A DNA stretch of 64,000 nt from Blautia sp. Marseille-P3087 (GTDB lineage: Bacteria; Bacillota; Clostridia; Lachnospirales; Lachnospiraceae). Every line of letters starts with the position of its first letter. The stretch's first letter is position 1. The position numbers and the translations under genes are program-made. Below the pieces are notes generated by a model. The model was not told the DNA's origin and did no database searches. It saw only the letters and a program-made list of their open reading frames with translations. Of the stretch, positions 27,279 through 33,424 are shown piece after piece. Location of the stretch: NCBI RefSeq assembly GCF_900120195.1, contig NZ_LT635539.1:2968661-3032660 (forward strand), in the 5' to 3' direction.

Positions 27279-27337
27279 CCGGAACTATTGTAAAGTTGAA
27301 AAAATAGTGGTATTCTGTAAGAAATTGAATAATAAAA

Positions 27338-27520
27338 CAACAGGTGCAGATGATTTTTATAAGAAATCACAAGTTAAAAGGGAAACAGGTGTAAGTCCTG
27401 TACGATCTCGTCACTGTAAACAGGGAATGTAAAGTCATGCGTGGATGCGCAGCCACTGGAGAACCGGGAAGGCGACTTTTTATGTGTTGATCTGTAAGTC
27501 AGGAAACCTGCCTGCTGTTG
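27338..27520 (+). promoter_or_regulatory. Cobalamin riboswitch
   Basis: Conserved core elements occur in order: AAAAGGGAAACAGGTGTAAG (27376 on), TCACTGTAAACAGGGAA, GCCACTGGAGAACCGGGAAG (27452 on) and the B12 box AGTCAGGAAACCTGCC (27498-27513). CAACAG (27338-27343) pairs with CTGTTG at the 3' end to close P1. A terminator follows at 27575, so adenosyl- or other cobalamins should switch off the downstream cbiK-transport operon. Confidence 0.95.
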
Positions 27521-27574
27521 GTACGGGGATTTTTTAATTCCGGATCACGAGTAATTGGTTGTACCATAATCCAG

Positions 27575-27604
27575 AAACTCTTAGCCCGGTGCAGGAGTTT
27601 TTTT
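27575..27604 (+). terminator. Expression-platform terminator of the cobalamin riboswitch
   Basis: AAACTC and GAGTTT form a short stem around TTAGCCCGGTGCAG, followed by seven Ts, 55 nt after the B12 box and about 100 nt before the gene. Stem short, but position and T run fit conditional termination. Confidence 0.7.
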
Positions 27605-27701
27605 GTGTAAAAAATACATAAAACTATCCACCGGACTATCAGCCGTACTTTGTTATTCATTTTAATTTTCATGAAAACCACAAGTACAGGAGGAAACAAA
27701 C

Positions 27702-29075
27702 ATGAAAAACAAAACTGTAAAAGCACTGGCACTGGCTATGGCTGTAGCAACAGTCACAATGATGGGATCTGCAAGCATTTATGCTTCTGATGACACTGCA
27801 GAGGCAGCAACAGAGGAAACAGCAGATACAGAAGAAGACGCAGATGCTGCAGATACAGAAGAAGACGCAGATGCTGCTGACACAGAAGAAGCATCCGATG
27901 ATGACCAGGCAGCAGCAGACGAAGTTGCAGCACTGATCGACAAGATCTACGTTCAGGAAAGAAACGATACAACTGACGAAGACTGCAAAGCTGCAAAAGA
28001 AGCATGGGACAAACTGACAGATGCTCAGAAAGAACTGGTTGAAGGCGAAGAAGCAAGCCCGGAATATTTCGGTGCAGATACAGGTGATGCATCCAAGGAT
28101 GATCCACGTAATCAGGATGAAATCGGTGAGAATGAGCTTCTCGTTGTAAGTTTTGGTACTTCTTTCAATGACAGCCGTGCACAGGATATCAAAGGAATCG
28201 AAGACAAACTTCAGGAAGCATATCCGGACTGGTCTGTAAGACGTGCATTTACAGCACAGATCATCATCAACCATGTAGAGGCAAGAGATGATGAAGTGAT
28301 TGATAACATGCAGCAGGCACTTGATCGTGCAGTTGCTAACGGAGTTAAAAATCTTGTTGTTCAGCCTACACATCTGATGCATGGTGCTGAATACGATGAA
28401 ATGACCGAAGCAATCGATGGATACAAAGATAAATTCGAATCTGTAGCAATCGCAGAGCCAATGCTTGGTGAAGTAGGCGATGATGCGACTGTTATCAACG
28501 ATGACAAGAAAGCAGTTGCACAGGCTATCACAGATGAAGCCTGCAAGATCGCAGGATATGACAGCATGGAAGCTGCAGCAGAAGACGGAACAGCATTCGT
28601 ATTCATGGGACATGGTACTTCCCATACAGCAAATGTAACATACGACCAGATGCAGACACAGATGGATGACCTTGGATTCACAAACGCTTTCATCGGTACT
28701 GTAGAAGGTGAGCCGGAAGATACAGAATGCCAGGCTGTTATTGCAAAAGTTAAAGACGCAGGATTCAAGAAAGTTGTTCTTCGTCCGCTGATGGTTGTTG
28801 CCGGTGATCATGCAAACAATGATATGGCTGGTGATGATGAAGATTCCTGGAAATCCCAGTTCGAAGCATCAGGTGCTTTTGACAGCATTGACTGCCAGAT
28901 TGAAGGACTTGGAAGAATTGAAGCAGTAGAAGATCTGTATGTAGAGCATACAAAAGCTGCAATTGATTCCCTTGGAGCAGATGCTGAAGCAGCAACAGAT
29001 GATGCTGAAGCAGAAGCAACAGACGACACAGCAGCAGATGATGCAGCAGAAACAACAGAAGAAGCTGCAGAATAA
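27702..29075 (+). CDS. Exported sirohydrochlorin cobaltochelatase-like protein (CbiK family)
   Basis: CbiK inserts Co2+ into sirohydrochlorin in anaerobic B12 synthesis. Here the 457-residue protein has a signal peptide (residues 1-28, ending SIYA). An acidic region with a repeated EEDADAADT unit follows, then a small surface-module-like helix region (VAALIDKIY ... KLTDAQKELV). The CbiK domain covers about residues 145-425: LLVVSFGTSFNDSRA, PTHLMHGAEYDEM, FMGHGTSHTAN with H304, and AGDHANND with H370. Both metal-site histidines are therefore kept. The C-terminus is a second acidic Ala/Asp/Glu tail. It is the first gene after the cobalamin riboswitch. Export suggests a role in extracellular tetrapyrrole or metal handling, not cytosolic B12 synthesis; that is inference. 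Confidence 0.88.
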   Translation: MKNKTVKALALAMAVATVTMMGSASIYASDDTAEAATEETADTEEDADAADTEEDADAADTEEASDDDQAAADEVAALIDKIYVQERNDTTDEDCKAAKEAWDKLTDAQKELVEGEEASPEYFGADTGDASKDDPRNQDEIGENELLVVSFGTSFNDSRAQDIKGIEDKLQEAYPDWSVRRAFTAQIIINHVEARDDEVIDNMQQALDRAVANGVKNLVVQPTHLMHGAEYDEMTEAIDGYKDKFESVAIAEPMLGEVGDDATVINDDKKAVAQAITDEACKIAGYDSMEAAAEDGTAFVFMGHGTSHTANVTYDQMQTQMDDLGFTNAFIGTVEGEPEDTECQAVIAKVKDAGFKKVVLRPLMVVAGDHANNDMAGDDEDSWKSQFEASGAFDSIDCQIEGLGRIEAVEDLYVEHTKAAIDSLGADAEAATDDAEAEATDDTAADDAAETTEEAAE

Positions 29076-29113
29076 TAAAATAATACATGATTTGTATCTA
29101 AGATAACGGGGGC

Positions 29114-29160
29114 TGCCCGGGAGGATTCAGGTCCTTCCGGGCATTTCCTGTAAAACAGGA
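29114..29160 (+). promoter_or_regulatory. Intercistronic hairpins, one covering the ribosome binding site
   Basis: TGCCCGG...CCGGGCA (29114-29142) with an inner AGGA/TCCT stem is followed by TCCTGT-AAA-ACAGGA (29146-29160). The second hairpin includes the start of the ACAGGAGGA ribosome binding site of the next gene. This may set relative expression within the operon. Confidence 0.5.
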
Positions 29161-29172
29161 GGATTTTATATT

Positions 29173-30114
29173 ATGAAACGTTCAGTGGCAATGATGGCAT
29201 GTGTATTAAGTGGAGCACTTATGATCGGCAGTTACAGCCCGGTTTTGGCAGAAGGAGCGAAGGCAGTTTCTGCAAAATCCGCAGAGCAGGAAACTACAGA
29301 AGAGACAAAAACAGACGAATCATCAGAAAGTGCCAAAGCAGACGATACTGCAAAAGGTGATGTCCTGGAAGATGGTGTCTACACAGCAGAGTTTGATACC
29401 GACAGCTCCATGTTCCATGTAAATGAAGCAAACGACGGAAAAGGTGAACTGACTGTCAAAGATGGCAAAATGACCATTCATGTAAGTCTGAATTCCAAAA
29501 AAATCGTAAATCTCTTTGTTGGAACGGCAGAAGATGCTCAGAAAGACGGTGCAGAGATTCTTGAGCCAACGACAGATACGGTTACCTACAGTGACGGAAT
29601 GACAGATGAAGTTTACGGATTTGACATTCCGGTACCTGCGATTGATGAAGAATTTGACGTTGCCCTGATCGGAACAAAAGATAAATGGTATGACCATAAA
29701 GTAAAAGTTACAAATCCGGAAAAAAAATCAGATGCTTCAGTTGAAACAACAGAGGATACAAAAAAAGTAACTGCTGAGGATCTGAAGCTGAAAGATGGCG
29801 ACTATACCGCAGAAGTAAAGATGGAAGGTGGCTCCGGCAAAGCATCTGTAACATCACCGGCGAAATTTACTGTCAAAGATGGTGAGGTAACTGCATCTGT
29901 AGAGTGGAGCAGTCCGTACTACGATTATATGCTGATCGGTGATGAAAAATATGAGCCGGTTAATGAGGATGGCAATTCTGTATTTGAAATTCCGGTAGAC
30001 GGATTTGACTATCCAATGGAAGTAGTTGCAGATACGGTTGCTATGAGCACTCCTCATGAAATCGAATATACGTTACAGTTTGATTCCGCAAGTATTAAAG
30101 AGGCAGATAAATAA
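29173..30114 (+). CDS. Exported protein with two NEAT-like domains
   Basis: A 313-residue secreted protein with signal peptide (residues 1-27, ending PVLA) and an acidic Thr/Glu/Ser linker. Two beta-rich repeats follow: about 65-172 (DGVYTAEFDTDSSMF, GELTVKDGKMTIHVSL, WYDHKVKV) and 195-308 (DGDYTAEVKMEGGSGKASV, KFTVKDGEVTASVEW, YYDYMLIGDEKY). The pattern 'DGxYtv ... xltVkdGk ... xv' resembles NEAT haem-binding domains, and tyrosines lie where haem ligands often sit. No LPXTG motif or lipobox is seen. Operon position suggests it binds the corrinoid or porphyrin for the ABC importer. NEAT assignment is by eye. Confidence 0.6.
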   Translation: MKRSVAMMACVLSGALMIGSYSPVLAEGAKAVSAKSAEQETTEETKTDESSESAKADDTAKGDVLEDGVYTAEFDTDSSMFHVNEANDGKGELTVKDGKMTIHVSLNSKKIVNLFVGTAEDAQKDGAEILEPTTDTVTYSDGMTDEVYGFDIPVPAIDEEFDVALIGTKDKWYDHKVKVTNPEKKSDASVETTEDTKKVTAEDLKLKDGDYTAEVKMEGGSGKASVTSPAKFTVKDGEVTASVEWSSPYYDYMLIGDEKYEPVNEDGNSVFEIPVDGFDYPMEVVADTVAMSTPHEIEYTLQFDSASIKEADK

Positions 30115-30116
30115 AA

Positions 30117-31292
30117 ATGAAAAATAAGTTACGTATGTTTTTATGTGCGGTTTTAAGTACTTCGCTTCTGTTGTCTGCACCTGTTCTGATACAGGCAGCA
30201 GATGCGCAGGAAACAACAGAAGATACAGAAACAAAACAGGACCTTGCAGGGCTGAAATATGACCACAGTCTGGAACTTCAGTATGCAGATCAGTTTTCAG
30301 TAGATTATTATGAAGACGGTTATGCGTTGATCACGATTGAAGGTGACGGGCAGTTTCTCCTCGTACCGGATGGGAAGGAAGCACCGGATGGGCTGGACAG
30401 TGACATTGCTGTGATCAGACAGCCGCTTCAGAATATTTATCTGGTGGCAACTTCAGCAATGGACCTTTTCTGTGCGCTGGACGGACTTGACAGCATCAGT
30501 CTTTCCGGAACAAATGCAGATGGCTGGTATATCGATGAGGCAAAGAAGGCTCTGGAAGATGGCAGTATTTCTTTTGCAGGAAAATACAGTGCACCGGATT
30601 ATGAACTGATTTTATCAAAAGGCTGTGATCTTGCAATTGAGTCCACAATGATCTATCACAAACCGGAGGTAAAAGAAAAACTGGAGCAGTTTGGAATTCC
30701 TGTTCTGGTAGAGCATTCCAGTTATGAAAGTCACCCACTCGGAAGAACGGAATGGCTGAAATTATATGGTGTCCTTTTGGGAAAAGAAGATCTGGCGGAT
30801 AAGCTTTTTCAGGAACAGGTAGATAAGCTGAAAGCAATCGAAGACAGCGAATCTACCGGAAAAACAGTGGCTTTCTTCTATATTAATTCTGTTGGTGCTG
30901 CCAATGTCCGTAAATCCGGCGATTATGTATCAAAAATGATCGAGCTTGCCGGTGGAAAATATATCTTTGATGATCTGGGGGCGGAGGAAGACAATTCCCT
31001 GTCCACGATGAATATGCAGATGGAAGAGTTTTATGCCGGTGCCAAAGATGCCGATTATATTATCTACAACAGTACCATTGACGGAGAGCTGACGGACATC
31101 AGCCAGCTCCTCGAAAAAAGCTCCCTGCTGGCGGATTTTAAGGCTGTCAAAGATGGGAATGTCTGGTGTACCAATCAGAATCTGTTTCAGGAGACGATGG
31201 AACTCGGTACTATGATCGAGGATATTCATACGATGCTGACATCAGATGATCCGGATCTGGATACGCTGACGTATATGCATAAGCTGAAATAA
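30117..31292 (+). CDS. ABC transporter substrate-binding protein (FecB/BtuF type)
   Basis: A 391-residue exported binding protein. The signal peptide ends near residue 27 (LIQAAD). Type III fold marks include a first lobe (residues 60-170), CDLAIESTMIYHKPEVKEKL, GIPVLVEHSSYESHPLGRTEW (the last given by position 205-225), and TVAFFYINSVGAANVRKSGD. This family delivers siderophores, haem or cobalamin. No lipobox cysteine is present in the signal peptide, unusual for a Gram-positive binding protein. The gene starts 2 nt after the NEAT-like gene stop. Confidence 0.88.
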   Translation: MKNKLRMFLCAVLSTSLLLSAPVLIQAADAQETTEDTETKQDLAGLKYDHSLELQYADQFSVDYYEDGYALITIEGDGQFLLVPDGKEAPDGLDSDIAVIRQPLQNIYLVATSAMDLFCALDGLDSISLSGTNADGWYIDEAKKALEDGSISFAGKYSAPDYELILSKGCDLAIESTMIYHKPEVKEKLEQFGIPVLVEHSSYESHPLGRTEWLKLYGVLLGKEDLADKLFQEQVDKLKAIEDSESTGKTVAFFYINSVGAANVRKSGDYVSKMIELAGGKYIFDDLGAEEDNSLSTMNMQMEEFYAGAKDADYIIYNSTIDGELTDISQLLEKSSLLADFKAVKDGNVWCTNQNLFQETMELGTMIEDIHTMLTSDDPDLDTLTYMHKLK

Positions 31293-31307
31293 AGAGAGGA
31301 ACGTAAC

Positions 31308-32324
31308 ATGCGGAAGAAATTACATTTCAGATACTGGCTGTCTTTTACAGTCTTGATCATTCTTTTGCTGGTCCTGGTATTCTGGAATATCAATTCGGGA
31401 AGCATTCCGATATCGTTAAAAGATGTTTTTCGGATTTTATTCCAAAAAGAAGGAAATCAGACCGCCTATAATATTGTATGGGAAATCCGGCTTCCGAGAA
31501 TACTGGCAGCAGTCATACTTGGAGGTGCACTTTCTGTATCCGGTTTTCTTCTGCAGACCTTTTTTGGAAACCCGATTGCGGGACCTTTTGTACTTGGTAT
31601 TTCTTCCGGGGCAAAACTGGTTGTTGCACTTACTATGATCTATCTTCTTGGAAAATCTATGGTTGCCACATCCGGAGTCATGATCATTGCGGCATTTATC
31701 GGTTCTTTGATTTCTATGGGATTTGTTCTTCTGATCTCAAGGAAAGTAAAGCAGATGTCCATGTTGGTAGTAAGTGGCATTATGATTGGATATATCTGTT
31801 CAGCTGTGACAGATTTTGCAGTCACTTTTGCAGACGATTCCAACATTGTAAATCTTCATAACTGGTCACTTGGAAGTTTTTCCGGTACAAGCTGGGATAA
31901 TGTTTCTGTGATGGCAGTTGTGGTGTTTGTTGCATTGTTTATCACATTTCTGATGTCAAAACCAATCAGTGCTTATCAGTTGGGAGAAGGCTACGCACAG
32001 AATATGGGTGTCAATATTAAGGCCTTTCGCGTTGCACTGATTTTGTTATCCAGTGTTCTGTCAGCCTGTGTGACTGCTTTTGCAGGTCCGATTTCCTTTG
32101 TGGGTATTGCCGTACCGCATCTTGTAAAGAGTCTGATGAAAACATCAAGACCATTGTTGATCATACCGGGATGTTTCCTTGGCGGTGCCGTATTCTGTCT
32201 GTTCTGTGATCTGATCGCAAGGACAGCGTTTGCACCGACAGAACTCAGCATCAGTTCTGTGACCGCAGTGTTTGGTGCTCCGGTAGTTATTTATATTATG
32301 ATACGAAGAAAGAGGATGGCCTGA
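31308..32324 (+). CDS. ABC transporter permease, FecCD/BtuC family
   Basis: A 338-residue membrane permease with about ten hydrophobic helices. Typical segments are EIRLPRILAAVILGGALSVS, FGNPIAGPFVLGISSGAKL and GPISFVGIAVPHLVK; the last is the EAA-like coupling region. AGAGAGGAA precedes the ATG. It is co-transcribed with the binding protein and ATPase, overlapping the latter by one base. Confidence 0.95.
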   Translation: MRKKLHFRYWLSFTVLIILLLVLVFWNINSGSIPISLKDVFRILFQKEGNQTAYNIVWEIRLPRILAAVILGGALSVSGFLLQTFFGNPIAGPFVLGISSGAKLVVALTMIYLLGKSMVATSGVMIIAAFIGSLISMGFVLLISRKVKQMSMLVVSGIMIGYICSAVTDFAVTFADDSNIVNLHNWSLGSFSGTSWDNVSVMAVVVFVALFITFLMSKPISAYQLGEGYAQNMGVNIKAFRVALILLSSVLSACVTAFAGPISFVGIAVPHLVKSLMKTSRPLLIIPGCFLGGAVFCLFCDLIARTAFAPTELSISSVTAVFGAPVVIYIMIRRKRMA

Positions 32325-33424
32325 TGGGAGAATATTTTGTTCATTCTGAGCAGATGACAGTGGGATATGATGGAAAACCACTGATTAAAGATATAGAGAT
32401 CCGGTTAAATCGTGGTGAGATCCTGACTCTGATCGGACCGAACGGTGCCGGAAAGTCTACGATTCTAAAGAGTCTGACGAGACAGTTAAAACTGATCAGC
32501 GGAACGGTTTATCTCGATCAGGAACTGATGAGCCATATGTCAGGAAAAGAGGTCGCACGTAAGCTTGCGGTTGTGACGACAGAGCGTATCCGTCCGGAGC
32601 TGATGACCTGTGAGGATATCGTGGCAACAGGGCGGTACCCATATACCGGAACACTTGGAATCCTTTCGAAGGAAGACTGGGAAAAAGTGCATAACGCAAT
32701 GGAAATGGTGCATGCGCTTGAATTTAAAGACCGTGATTTCACTGCAATCAGCGACGGGCAGAGACAGCGAATTCTGCTTGCGAGAGCAATCTGTCAGGAA
32801 CCGGAGATCATCGTTCTGGATGAGCCGACATCTTTTCTGGATATCCGTCATAAGCTGGAACTTCTTTCTATATTAAAGAAGATGGTTCTGGAGCATCATA
32901 CGGCAGTATTGATGTCTCTTCATGAACTGGATCTGGCACAGAAGATTTCAGATTATGTGATCTGCGTGCATGGAGACCAGATTGAAAAATACGGAACACC
33001 GGAGGAGATTTTTACTTCAGAATATATCCATCATCTCTACGGAATTACGACAGGCAGTTATAATGCTTCATTCGGATGTCTGGAAATGGGCGCGCCGGAG
33101 GGGAAACCGCAGGTATTTGTAATCGGTGGAAATGGTATGGGAATACCGACATATCGCAGACTGCAGCGTGCAGGAATACCGTTTGTGGCAGGTATCATTC
33201 ATAAAAATGATGTGGATTATGAAGTCGCGAAAGCGCTGGCGGCAGAAGTGATCTGTGAAGAAGCTTTTGAAAAGATTACAGAAGAAAATCTGGTGAAAGC
33301 GCAGAATCTCATGGATCTTTGTGGAGAAGTCATCTGCTGTGTGGATAAATTCGGTCCGATGAATGAAGGAAACCGAAAACTTGTGGAAAAAGCGCGGCAG
33401 GATGGAAAACTAAAGTCCCTTTGA
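32324..33424 (+). CDS. ABC transporter ATP-binding protein with extra C-terminal domain
   Basis: The 366-residue protein has an ABC ATPase at residues 1-245: Walker A GPNGAGKST, signature ISDGQRQRILLARAI (variant DGQ), Walker B IIVLDEPTSFLD and switch His in SLHELD. Residues 255-366 form a separate domain with a Rossmann-like start (PQVFVIGGNGMGIPTYRRL). The extension is absent from ordinary FecE/BtuD proteins (about 260 residues) and may sense a ligand or nucleotide. It is last in the riboswitch operon and overlaps the convergent tetR-like gene by 15 bp. Confidence 0.93.
   Translation: MGEYFVHSEQMTVGYDGKPLIKDIEIRLNRGEILTLIGPNGAGKSTILKSLTRQLKLISGTVYLDQELMSHMSGKEVARKLAVVTTERIRPELMTCEDIVATGRYPYTGTLGILSKEDWEKVHNAMEMVHALEFKDRDFTAISDGQRQRILLARAICQEPEIIVLDEPTSFLDIRHKLELLSILKKMVLEHHTAVLMSLHELDLAQKISDYVICVHGDQIEKYGTPEEIFTSEYIHHLYGITTGSYNASFGCLEMGAPEGKPQVFVIGGNGMGIPTYRRLQRAGIPFVAGIIHKNDVDYEVAKALAAEVICEEAFEKITEENLVKAQNLMDLCGEVICCVDKFGPMNEGNRKLVEKARQDGKLKSL

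Follow-up and report, generated by a model that had tools for sequence, protein, structure and literature searches.

The Iht system of Porphyromonas gingivalis has been described as a CbiK-like exported lipoprotein accompanied by a binding protein, a permease and an ATPase (PMC10913741), and the same bacterium is described as lacking the steps to precorrin-2 (PMC6461909). In Desulfovibrio, a single B12 element is reported to control both cbiK-cbiL and btuCDF (PMC545781), a cobalamin riboswitch is placed near cbiKP (PMC11124144), and a 2008 paper, cited by PMC12654859, speaks in its title of two functional CbiK proteins. Sirohydrochlorin is given as the known substrate of cobalt insertion, with CbiL acting on the product (PMC7242693), and tetrapyrrole precursor salvagers, mostly Firmicutes, are defined by a corrin pathway without the early tetrapyrrole steps (Shelton et al., 2018; PMC6461909). 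Here we analyzed a riboswitch-led operon of five genes, encoding an exported CbiK-type chelatase, a NEAT-like protein and an ATP-binding cassette (ABC) importer, in a 64,000-nucleotide stretch of DNA from Blautia sp. Marseille-P3087 (contig NZ_LT635539.1; the whole stretch is called the window below). B12 synthesis is usually described as a cytosolic process that follows the import of cobalt. On balance, we consider it somewhat probable that this operon provides an entry port on the outside of the cell, at which exported CbiK loads cobalt into a scavenged tetrapyrrole that the NEAT-like protein and the ABC importer then deliver for B12 synthesis.

The operon and its counterparts in relatives

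A first-pass annotation of the window, made from the sequence letters, had read the locus as a B12 riboswitch ahead of five genes, for an exported CbiK, an exported two-domain NEAT-like protein, a FecB-type binding protein, a permease and an ATPase. The riboswitch was confirmed by cmscan at 89.7 bits, and the gene identities were upheld by fold comparison and by a Pfam scan that covered the five operon genes, two upstream neighbors and one downstream neighbor; the calls for the five genes were, in order, CbiK, NEAT (slightly under cut-off), Peripla_BP_2, FecCD and ABC_tran. Gene 1 scored 248 bits against PF06180 (cut-off 26.2) and 201.3 bits against NF047852, the NCBIfam equivalog model for sirohydrochlorin cobaltochelatase CbiK, which is below its cut-off of 400. 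The PDB sequences closest to gene 1 were FetB (9b86; E 1.5e-36), Salmonella CbiK (1qgo; 3.2e-36) and Desulfovibrio CbiKP (2xvx; 2.6e-29). A relative in which CbiK is joined to both NEAT domains (L137) was modeled with a mean predicted local distance difference test score (pLDDT) of 83.1, and template modeling scores were 0.92 to Salmonella CbiK (1qgo), 0.90 to CbiKP (2xvz) and 0.88 to FetB. The signal peptide and the histidines H304 and H370 noted in the first-pass annotation also stood: an export signal is predicted from the translation, and both histidines, to which E335 can be added, showed at least 90% conservation within each of the groups compared, namely 94 exported sequences of clade 1 (some of them identical), 5 exported sequences of clade 2 and 20 of the cytosolic type. 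We take these three residues to be the metal ligands. By a crude test, a hydrophobic N-terminus was present in 94/94 clade 1 and 5/5 clade 2 proteins, of which 56 and 4, respectively, also have a lipobox; the same test was also positive for 5 of the 20 cytosolic-type proteins. Duplicated forms of the exported gene occur as well, as two CbiK copies within a single 946-amino-acid open frame (G252:C6:18964-21675) and as a tandem pair (G145:C1:1336816-1340045).

Gene 2 reached 30.3 bits against PF05031, under the gathering score of 32.8, and sequence searches of the PDB with gene 2 and with a profile of each NEAT domain gave no meaningful match. Comparison by fold of its structure model with known structures identified a NEAT fold, as the first-pass annotation had expected, and the structures matched were largely solved with heme. 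The heme-ligand motif of NEAT domains is YxxxY. At what may be the corresponding place, the C-terminal strand of gene 2 reads HEIEY; the search of PDB sequences yielded no NEAT structure with which to align it residue by residue. The alignment used for the NEAT model (A1) includes a paralogue row (L057, 36% identity) and six minus-strand rows trimmed one codon off at their ends. The CbiL gene of the window genome has as its neighbor a gene for a small exported protein whose one NEAT repeat is of the domain 2 type (G000:C2:550163-550477, minus strand; L005 13050-13571).

To follow conservation of the locus, named genomes were scanned; they yielded 320 relatives, the best 80 of which were analyzed. 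These best 80 are mostly what we take to be Lachnospiraceae (Blautia, Roseburia, Coprococcus, Fusicatenibacter and Pseudobutyrivibrio), and Faecalibacterium and Pseudoflavonifractor were also among them. A cobalamin riboswitch was found upstream by cmscan in 34/34 loci scanned (27 named, 4 of the same genus and 3 of clade 2), and evidence for one was present in all of the best 80 named relatives, from cmscan in 27 and from a B12 box in 53. The B12-box pattern was positive in 72 of the 80 named loci, with a single other match in 943 kb, and the 8 negative loci were all confirmed by cmscan. NEAT domain 1 followed CbiK in 79/80 named loci. Gene order was scored by tblastn, and the importer was counted at the 70 loci with at least 6 kb of downstream sequence: NEAT domain 1, binding protein, permease and ATPase were all present in 58/70, in that order in 56, and together with the lipobox count above these numbers bear out the earlier expectation that the five genes are linked and that CbiK carries an export signal in relatives. 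Genes for CbiP (26 loci), CobT (19) and CbiD (9) lay within 10 kb downstream. At L036 (7894-8075) and L071 (10889-11078), a second cobalamin riboswitch occurs a few kb past the CbiK/NEAT pair, with no importer directly behind the pair.

Gene fusions were also found. NEAT domain 1 formed the C-terminus of CbiK in 10/10 long CbiK frames examined, out of 17 that exist, and CbiK is fused to both NEAT domains in L103 as in L137. NEAT and the binding protein form a single chain in L152, L153 and L155, and the ATPase is fused to the cobyric acid synthase CbiP in L146. Read together, these fusions appear to connect a path from chelatase to relay to binding protein to the B12 pathway, with the last link made through the ATPase.

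Considering that FetB, the nearest PDB sequence, is named a heme-binding protein and that the matched NEAT structures are largely solved with heme, the system might be thought to serve heme or siroheme piracy, with exported CbiK working in reverse to strip iron (a role put forward for the IhtB protein of P. gingivalis) and with either the iron or the empty ring being imported. This we regard as very unlikely, since the cobalamin riboswitch stood upstream of all 34 loci scanned, the operon co-occurs with cbiD and is continued in some relatives by B12 genes, and import of an empty ring would leave cobalt insertion to a cytosolic cobaltochelatase, none of which was found in the 62 genomes described below. 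Plain heme uptake was rejected in view of the riboswitch and the B12 linkage.

Cobalt import, ring supply and the proposed role

The distribution of the system was determined in 298 genomes of the window's family, which the named relatives suggest to be Lachnospiraceae, evenly drawn with 90% completeness requested. CbiK proteins were assigned to the exported or cytosolic type by similarity to the window protein, exported clade 1 being defined by tblastn scores of at least 468 bits and clade 2 by scores of 230-310 bits. G111 and G074 (short frames, no NEAT gene beside them) were removed by eye from the clade 2 range and counted as cytosolic-type, G234 (a partial match at a contig end) was left out of the exported count, and G063 was counted as exported-only, with two tblastn matches and one CbiK profile match. 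The exported type was present in 97/298 genomes, 72 with clade 1 and 25 with clade 2, and cbiD was found in 95 of these 97 vs. 80 of the 201 others (Fisher p 6e-26, kinship ignored). A NEAT gene lay within 3.5 kb on the same strand at 72/74 clade 1 loci and at 25/25 clade 2 loci, the latter count being partly circular because G111 and G074 were excluded in part for having no NEAT gene. In 62 cbiD genomes, including the single-contig G220 and G254, exported CbiK was the sole PF06180 match, and the view of the exported gene as a mere duplicate was rejected on this ground. A hidden CbiX acting as cytosolic chelatase was not seen in these exported-only genomes: among the matches listed for the CbiX profile, all lay, by eye, inside the exported CbiK gene. 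At least 33 exported loci had cbiD within 20 kb downstream on the same strand, and in 30 of these exported CbiK was the only one. The cbiD genomes with no PF06180 match were G062, G091, G137, G169, G181, G233, G305 and G325.

Exported CbiK occurred in 2 of the 123 cbiD-negative genomes (G273 and G337), while a cobalamin riboswitch match was present in 60 of the 80 cbiD-negative genomes tested, 57 of them above cut-off. Since these B12-responsive genomes mostly lack the system, its distribution speaks against the uptake of finished corrinoids. The same evidence bears on the possibility of corrinoid capture, in which CbiK and the NEAT-like protein would be non-catalytic binders of cobamide or cobinamide that feed a BtuFCD-type importer, like BtuG, BtuH and BtuJ of Bacteroides, whose riboswitch operons are described as encoding surface cobamide-binding lipoproteins (PMC12751083). 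Riboswitch control would suit such a role, as would the importer: the best NCBIfam model for the permease was BtuC (220.6 bits, cut-off 334), and the corrinoid ATPase model NF007082 was the second-best match of the ATPase (204.5 bits over 9-339, cut-off 537), although neither curated cut-off for BtuCD was reached. The binding protein gave no useful match to PDB sequences. However, corrinoid capture would be expected above all in B12 scavengers, where the system is nearly missing; it leaves unexplained why exported-only genomes lack cytosolic CbiK, CbiM and often HemC/Met8; and the metal triad is fully retained. We therefore consider it unlikely, and plain corrinoid salvage was rejected in view of the near absence of the system from cbiD-negative genomes.

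We next consider cobalt import. A cobalt-type CbiM was defined by an open frame below 330 and a profile end of at least 199, with matches under 60 bits excluded; longer PF01891 forms are presumably the nickel-type NikMN. Among cbiD genomes, cobalt-type CbiM was present in 50/72 with only cytosolic CbiK, in 7/33 with both types and in 0/62 with only the exported type (cytosolic-only vs. exported-only, Fisher p 9e-20); seven ambiguous rows left 3 cytosolic-only, 1 both-type and 0 exported-only genomes unclear. PF01891 appeared in exported-only genomes only as the longer form (14 genomes, taken as nickel-type) or as weak matches.

Ring supply was assessed in 34 of the 62 exported-only genomes, hand-picked before the result was known and mostly representing the better assemblies. 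Met8 was counted at E <1e-15, the weaker matches lying mostly in frames of ~450-500 amino acids. HemC was present in 9/34 (3/25 of clade 1, the window's clade, and 6/9 of clade 2) and absent in 25/34, a strong Met8-type match was present in 12/34, and both were absent in 22/34, which would therefore make no sirohydrochlorin by the known route. For comparison, 19 cytosolic-only genomes were taken from the high-scoring end of the CbiK profile list and searched near CbiK only. HemC lay within ~30 kb of CbiK in 16/19 (the initial 20-kb stretches showed it in 9, and widening the search by 20 kb on each side added 7 of the remaining 10), vs. 9/34 genome-wide in the exported-only set (Fisher p 1.2e-4; both sets non-random). 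Because a near-gene search was set against whole genomes, the comparison is conservative for the cytosolic group. The clearest case of exported CbiK leading into the corrin pathway is G315 (2 contigs, 99% complete), in which a same-strand run begins with exported CbiK, NEAT, binding protein, permease and an ATPase-CbiP fusion and also holds CobT, CbiB, CobD, CbiC, CbiD, CbiF, CbiG, CbiH, CbiJET, CbiA and CbiL; a search of this genome found no HemC and no strong Met8.

The lack of cobalt-type CbiM in exported-only genomes could also mean that the system scavenges cobalt only, with CbiK and the NEAT-like protein binding Co2+, the cobalt complex being imported and a CysG/Met8-type enzyme inserting the metal in the cytosol; the eight cbiD genomes without CbiK, in which another chelatase may exist, would agree with this. 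It is nonetheless very improbable, given that neither a ring nor a Met8-type chelatase is evident in the 22/34 exported-only genomes without HemC and strong Met8, and that a FecCD-type importer and a NEAT fold would seem more fitting for a tetrapyrrole than for a bare ion.

Taking together the gene content and linkage, export signals, metal triad, NEAT fold, fusions and loss patterns seen in the relatives, we infer chelation outside the cell, the nature of the substrate and its hand-over as follows. At low B12, the riboswitch would turn the operon on, and exported CbiK would put Co2+ into sirohydrochlorin, which is probably the substrate, or into a close scavenged tetrapyrrole, on the outside of the membrane. 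The product would go by way of the NEAT-like protein to the binding protein; cobalt-sirohydrochlorin would then be imported through the permease and ATPase and methylated by CbiL. Since cobalt and ring would enter together, a cobalt importer and a cytosolic chelatase would both become dispensable, and the exported-only genomes, which lack a cobalt-type importer and mostly lack HemC/Met8, fit this prediction. More tentatively, and with somewhat less confidence than in the entry port itself, we suggest that surface CbiK makes cobalt-sirohydrochlorin extracellularly in many Gram-positive gut bacteria, where the system would take the place of cobalt-ion import as well as of the early tetrapyrrole steps, and would be the missing uptake system of the salvagers; the scavenged sirohydrochlorin might then perhaps arise from siroheme by metal swap. 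The first-pass annotation had inferred a Gram-positive system that binds tetrapyrroles or corrinoids outside the cell and perhaps changes or strips the metal before uptake. A B12-regulated surface system with exported CbiK and an importer is retained here, but the genome evidence, with cbiD in 95/97 genomes, speaks against the capture of finished corrinoids; a change of metal outside the cell remains the best fit, but the genome evidence favors the addition of cobalt over stripping.

Several observations weigh against the entry port. The association tests ignore phylogeny, and the exported/cytosolic split of the genome sample is based on similarity rather than on the signal peptides of individual proteins. 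FetB, a close relative of gene 1, is named a heme-binding protein. Part or all of the importer was not nearby at 12/70 named loci, and G220 and G254 have CbiK and NEAT domain 1 with no adjoining importer. Any CbiK was absent from 8/175 cbiD genomes, so that other means of cobalt insertion may exist. No source of free sirohydrochlorin was identified, and all 9 HemC-positive exported-only genomes were also Met8-positive; their own sirohydrochlorin would thus need to be exported, or another cobalt-inserting enzyme used, and no exporter was seen. Finally, the window genome itself has a second, shorter, cytosolic-type CbiK (G000:C2:547022) with CbiL nearby, relatives of HemA, Met8, HemC and CobA/HemD at G000:C2 ~517.4-521.3 kb, ~26-30 kb from that CbiK, a full anaerobic cluster (CbiD, F, G, H, J/E/T, A, B, P and C) and no match to CbiM. 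With this cytosolic route, the exported system is not needed there and would be an added second entry route.

Features of the locus

The coordinates of the operon and its RNA elements are collected in Table 1. The last of the five same-strand genes ends at 33424; on the other side, an NhaC-like antiporter gene ends 46 bases 5' of the riboswitch. Downstream, the operon is bounded by a TetR-type gene on the opposite strand. Support for the hairpin between the aptamer and gene 1 is weak because its z-score is only -1.86, and the hairpin was not among the sites found by the terminator scan. The very stable hairpin in the chelatase/NEAT gap may act in mRNA processing or attenuation and perhaps keeps the first protein at a high ratio. 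Elsewhere, the window genome has another strong cobalamin riboswitch (103.5 bits; loci L001 and L006) at G000:C2:1393498-1393690 on the minus strand. No obvious large gene directly adjoins its 3' side; the first one to follow on that strand, >2 kb off behind an opposite-strand open reading frame, looks by eye like a gene for a glycyl-radical enzyme.

Table 1. Positions in the window of the operon genes, their domains and associated RNA elements.
Feature	Position	Strand	Basis or remark
Cobalamin riboswitch aptamer (RF00174)	27325..27529	+	cmscan 89.7 bits, E 7.3e-21
Hairpin then T-run, possible riboswitch-controlled terminator	27573..27604	+	fold of 27560-27612, -12.1 kcal/mol, z -1.86
Exported CbiK-type (class II) chelatase, 457 amino acids	27702..29075	+	PF06180 E 1.3e-73
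Predicted signal peptide: Lys start, hydrophobic core, SIYAS-DD; without lipobox here	27702..27788	+	read from translation
CbiK domain, residues 146-421	28137..28964	+	Pfam boundaries
Triad H304, E335, H370	28611-28613, 28704-28706, 28809-28811	+	conservation across relatives
Strong hairpin in gene 1/gene 2 gap	29106..29151	+	fold -34 kcal/mol, z -4.80; terminator-like site 29114-29143
Exported two-domain NEAT-like protein, 313 amino acids	29173..30114	+	Pfam NEAT 205-304; structure model
NEAT-like domain 1	29362..29730	+	constant chelatase partner; CbiK-fused in relatives
NEAT domain 2; C-terminal strand HEIEY, H295 to Y299	29779..30102	+	
Exported FecB/BtuF-type substrate-binding protein	30117..31292	+	PF01497 E 1.9e-32
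FecCD/BtuC-type permease	31308..32324	+	PF01032 E 4.4e-83
ABC ATPase with C-terminal extension	32324..33424	+	PF00005 E 1.3e-29

Comparison with known systems

An entry step outside the cell could explain how bacteria unable to make the tetrapyrrole building block nevertheless make B12, and would give a molecular answer to how salvagers, perhaps including P. gingivalis, supply their corrin pathway. If it is present in many gut Lachnospiraceae, views of cobalt supply, genome-based predictions of B12 self-sufficiency and models of gut cross-feeding would need revision, since some presumed B12 makers would rely on other organisms for the ring. Among open-licence papers, we found no description of a Gram-positive exported CbiK/NEAT system and no match for NEAT with a cobalamin riboswitch. 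What appears to be new by this measure is the NEAT-bearing form in Gram-positive bacteria, how widely it is spread, and the evidence that both cobalt import and the inside chelatase can be replaced by it.

Judged by HemC and Met8 only, searched genome-wide, 22/34 exported-only genomes resemble the tetrapyrrole precursor salvagers. The text of PMC6461909 on these salvagers names no uptake system, and the window genome, in which early tetrapyrrole genes are present, is not itself a salvager. The system resembles that of CbiKP in Desulfovibrio in having an exported, here putative, cobaltochelatase near a cobalamin riboswitch. However, Desulfovibrio is Gram-negative, the text on it mentions no NEAT protein, and it is described as having two CbiK proteins, whereas 62 family genomes here show the exported type only. 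The NEAT heme relays (IsdX1, IsdX2, IsdH and Hbp2) are under iron control, in contrast to the B12 control of the window system, and the window NEAT protein further differs from them in its chelatase partner, its divergent domain 1 and, apparently, its HEIEY strand. The Iht system, whose IhtB we take to be FetB (PDB 9b86), resembles the window gene set in that IhtBCDE combines an exported CbiK-like protein with a binding protein, a permease and an ATPase. It differs in having a TonB receptor, IhtA, no counterpart of which was seen among the five operon genes and the three neighbors covered by the Pfam scan, and in being discussed for heme iron, while the window system is distinguished by its NEAT protein, its cobalamin riboswitch and its links to cbi genes.

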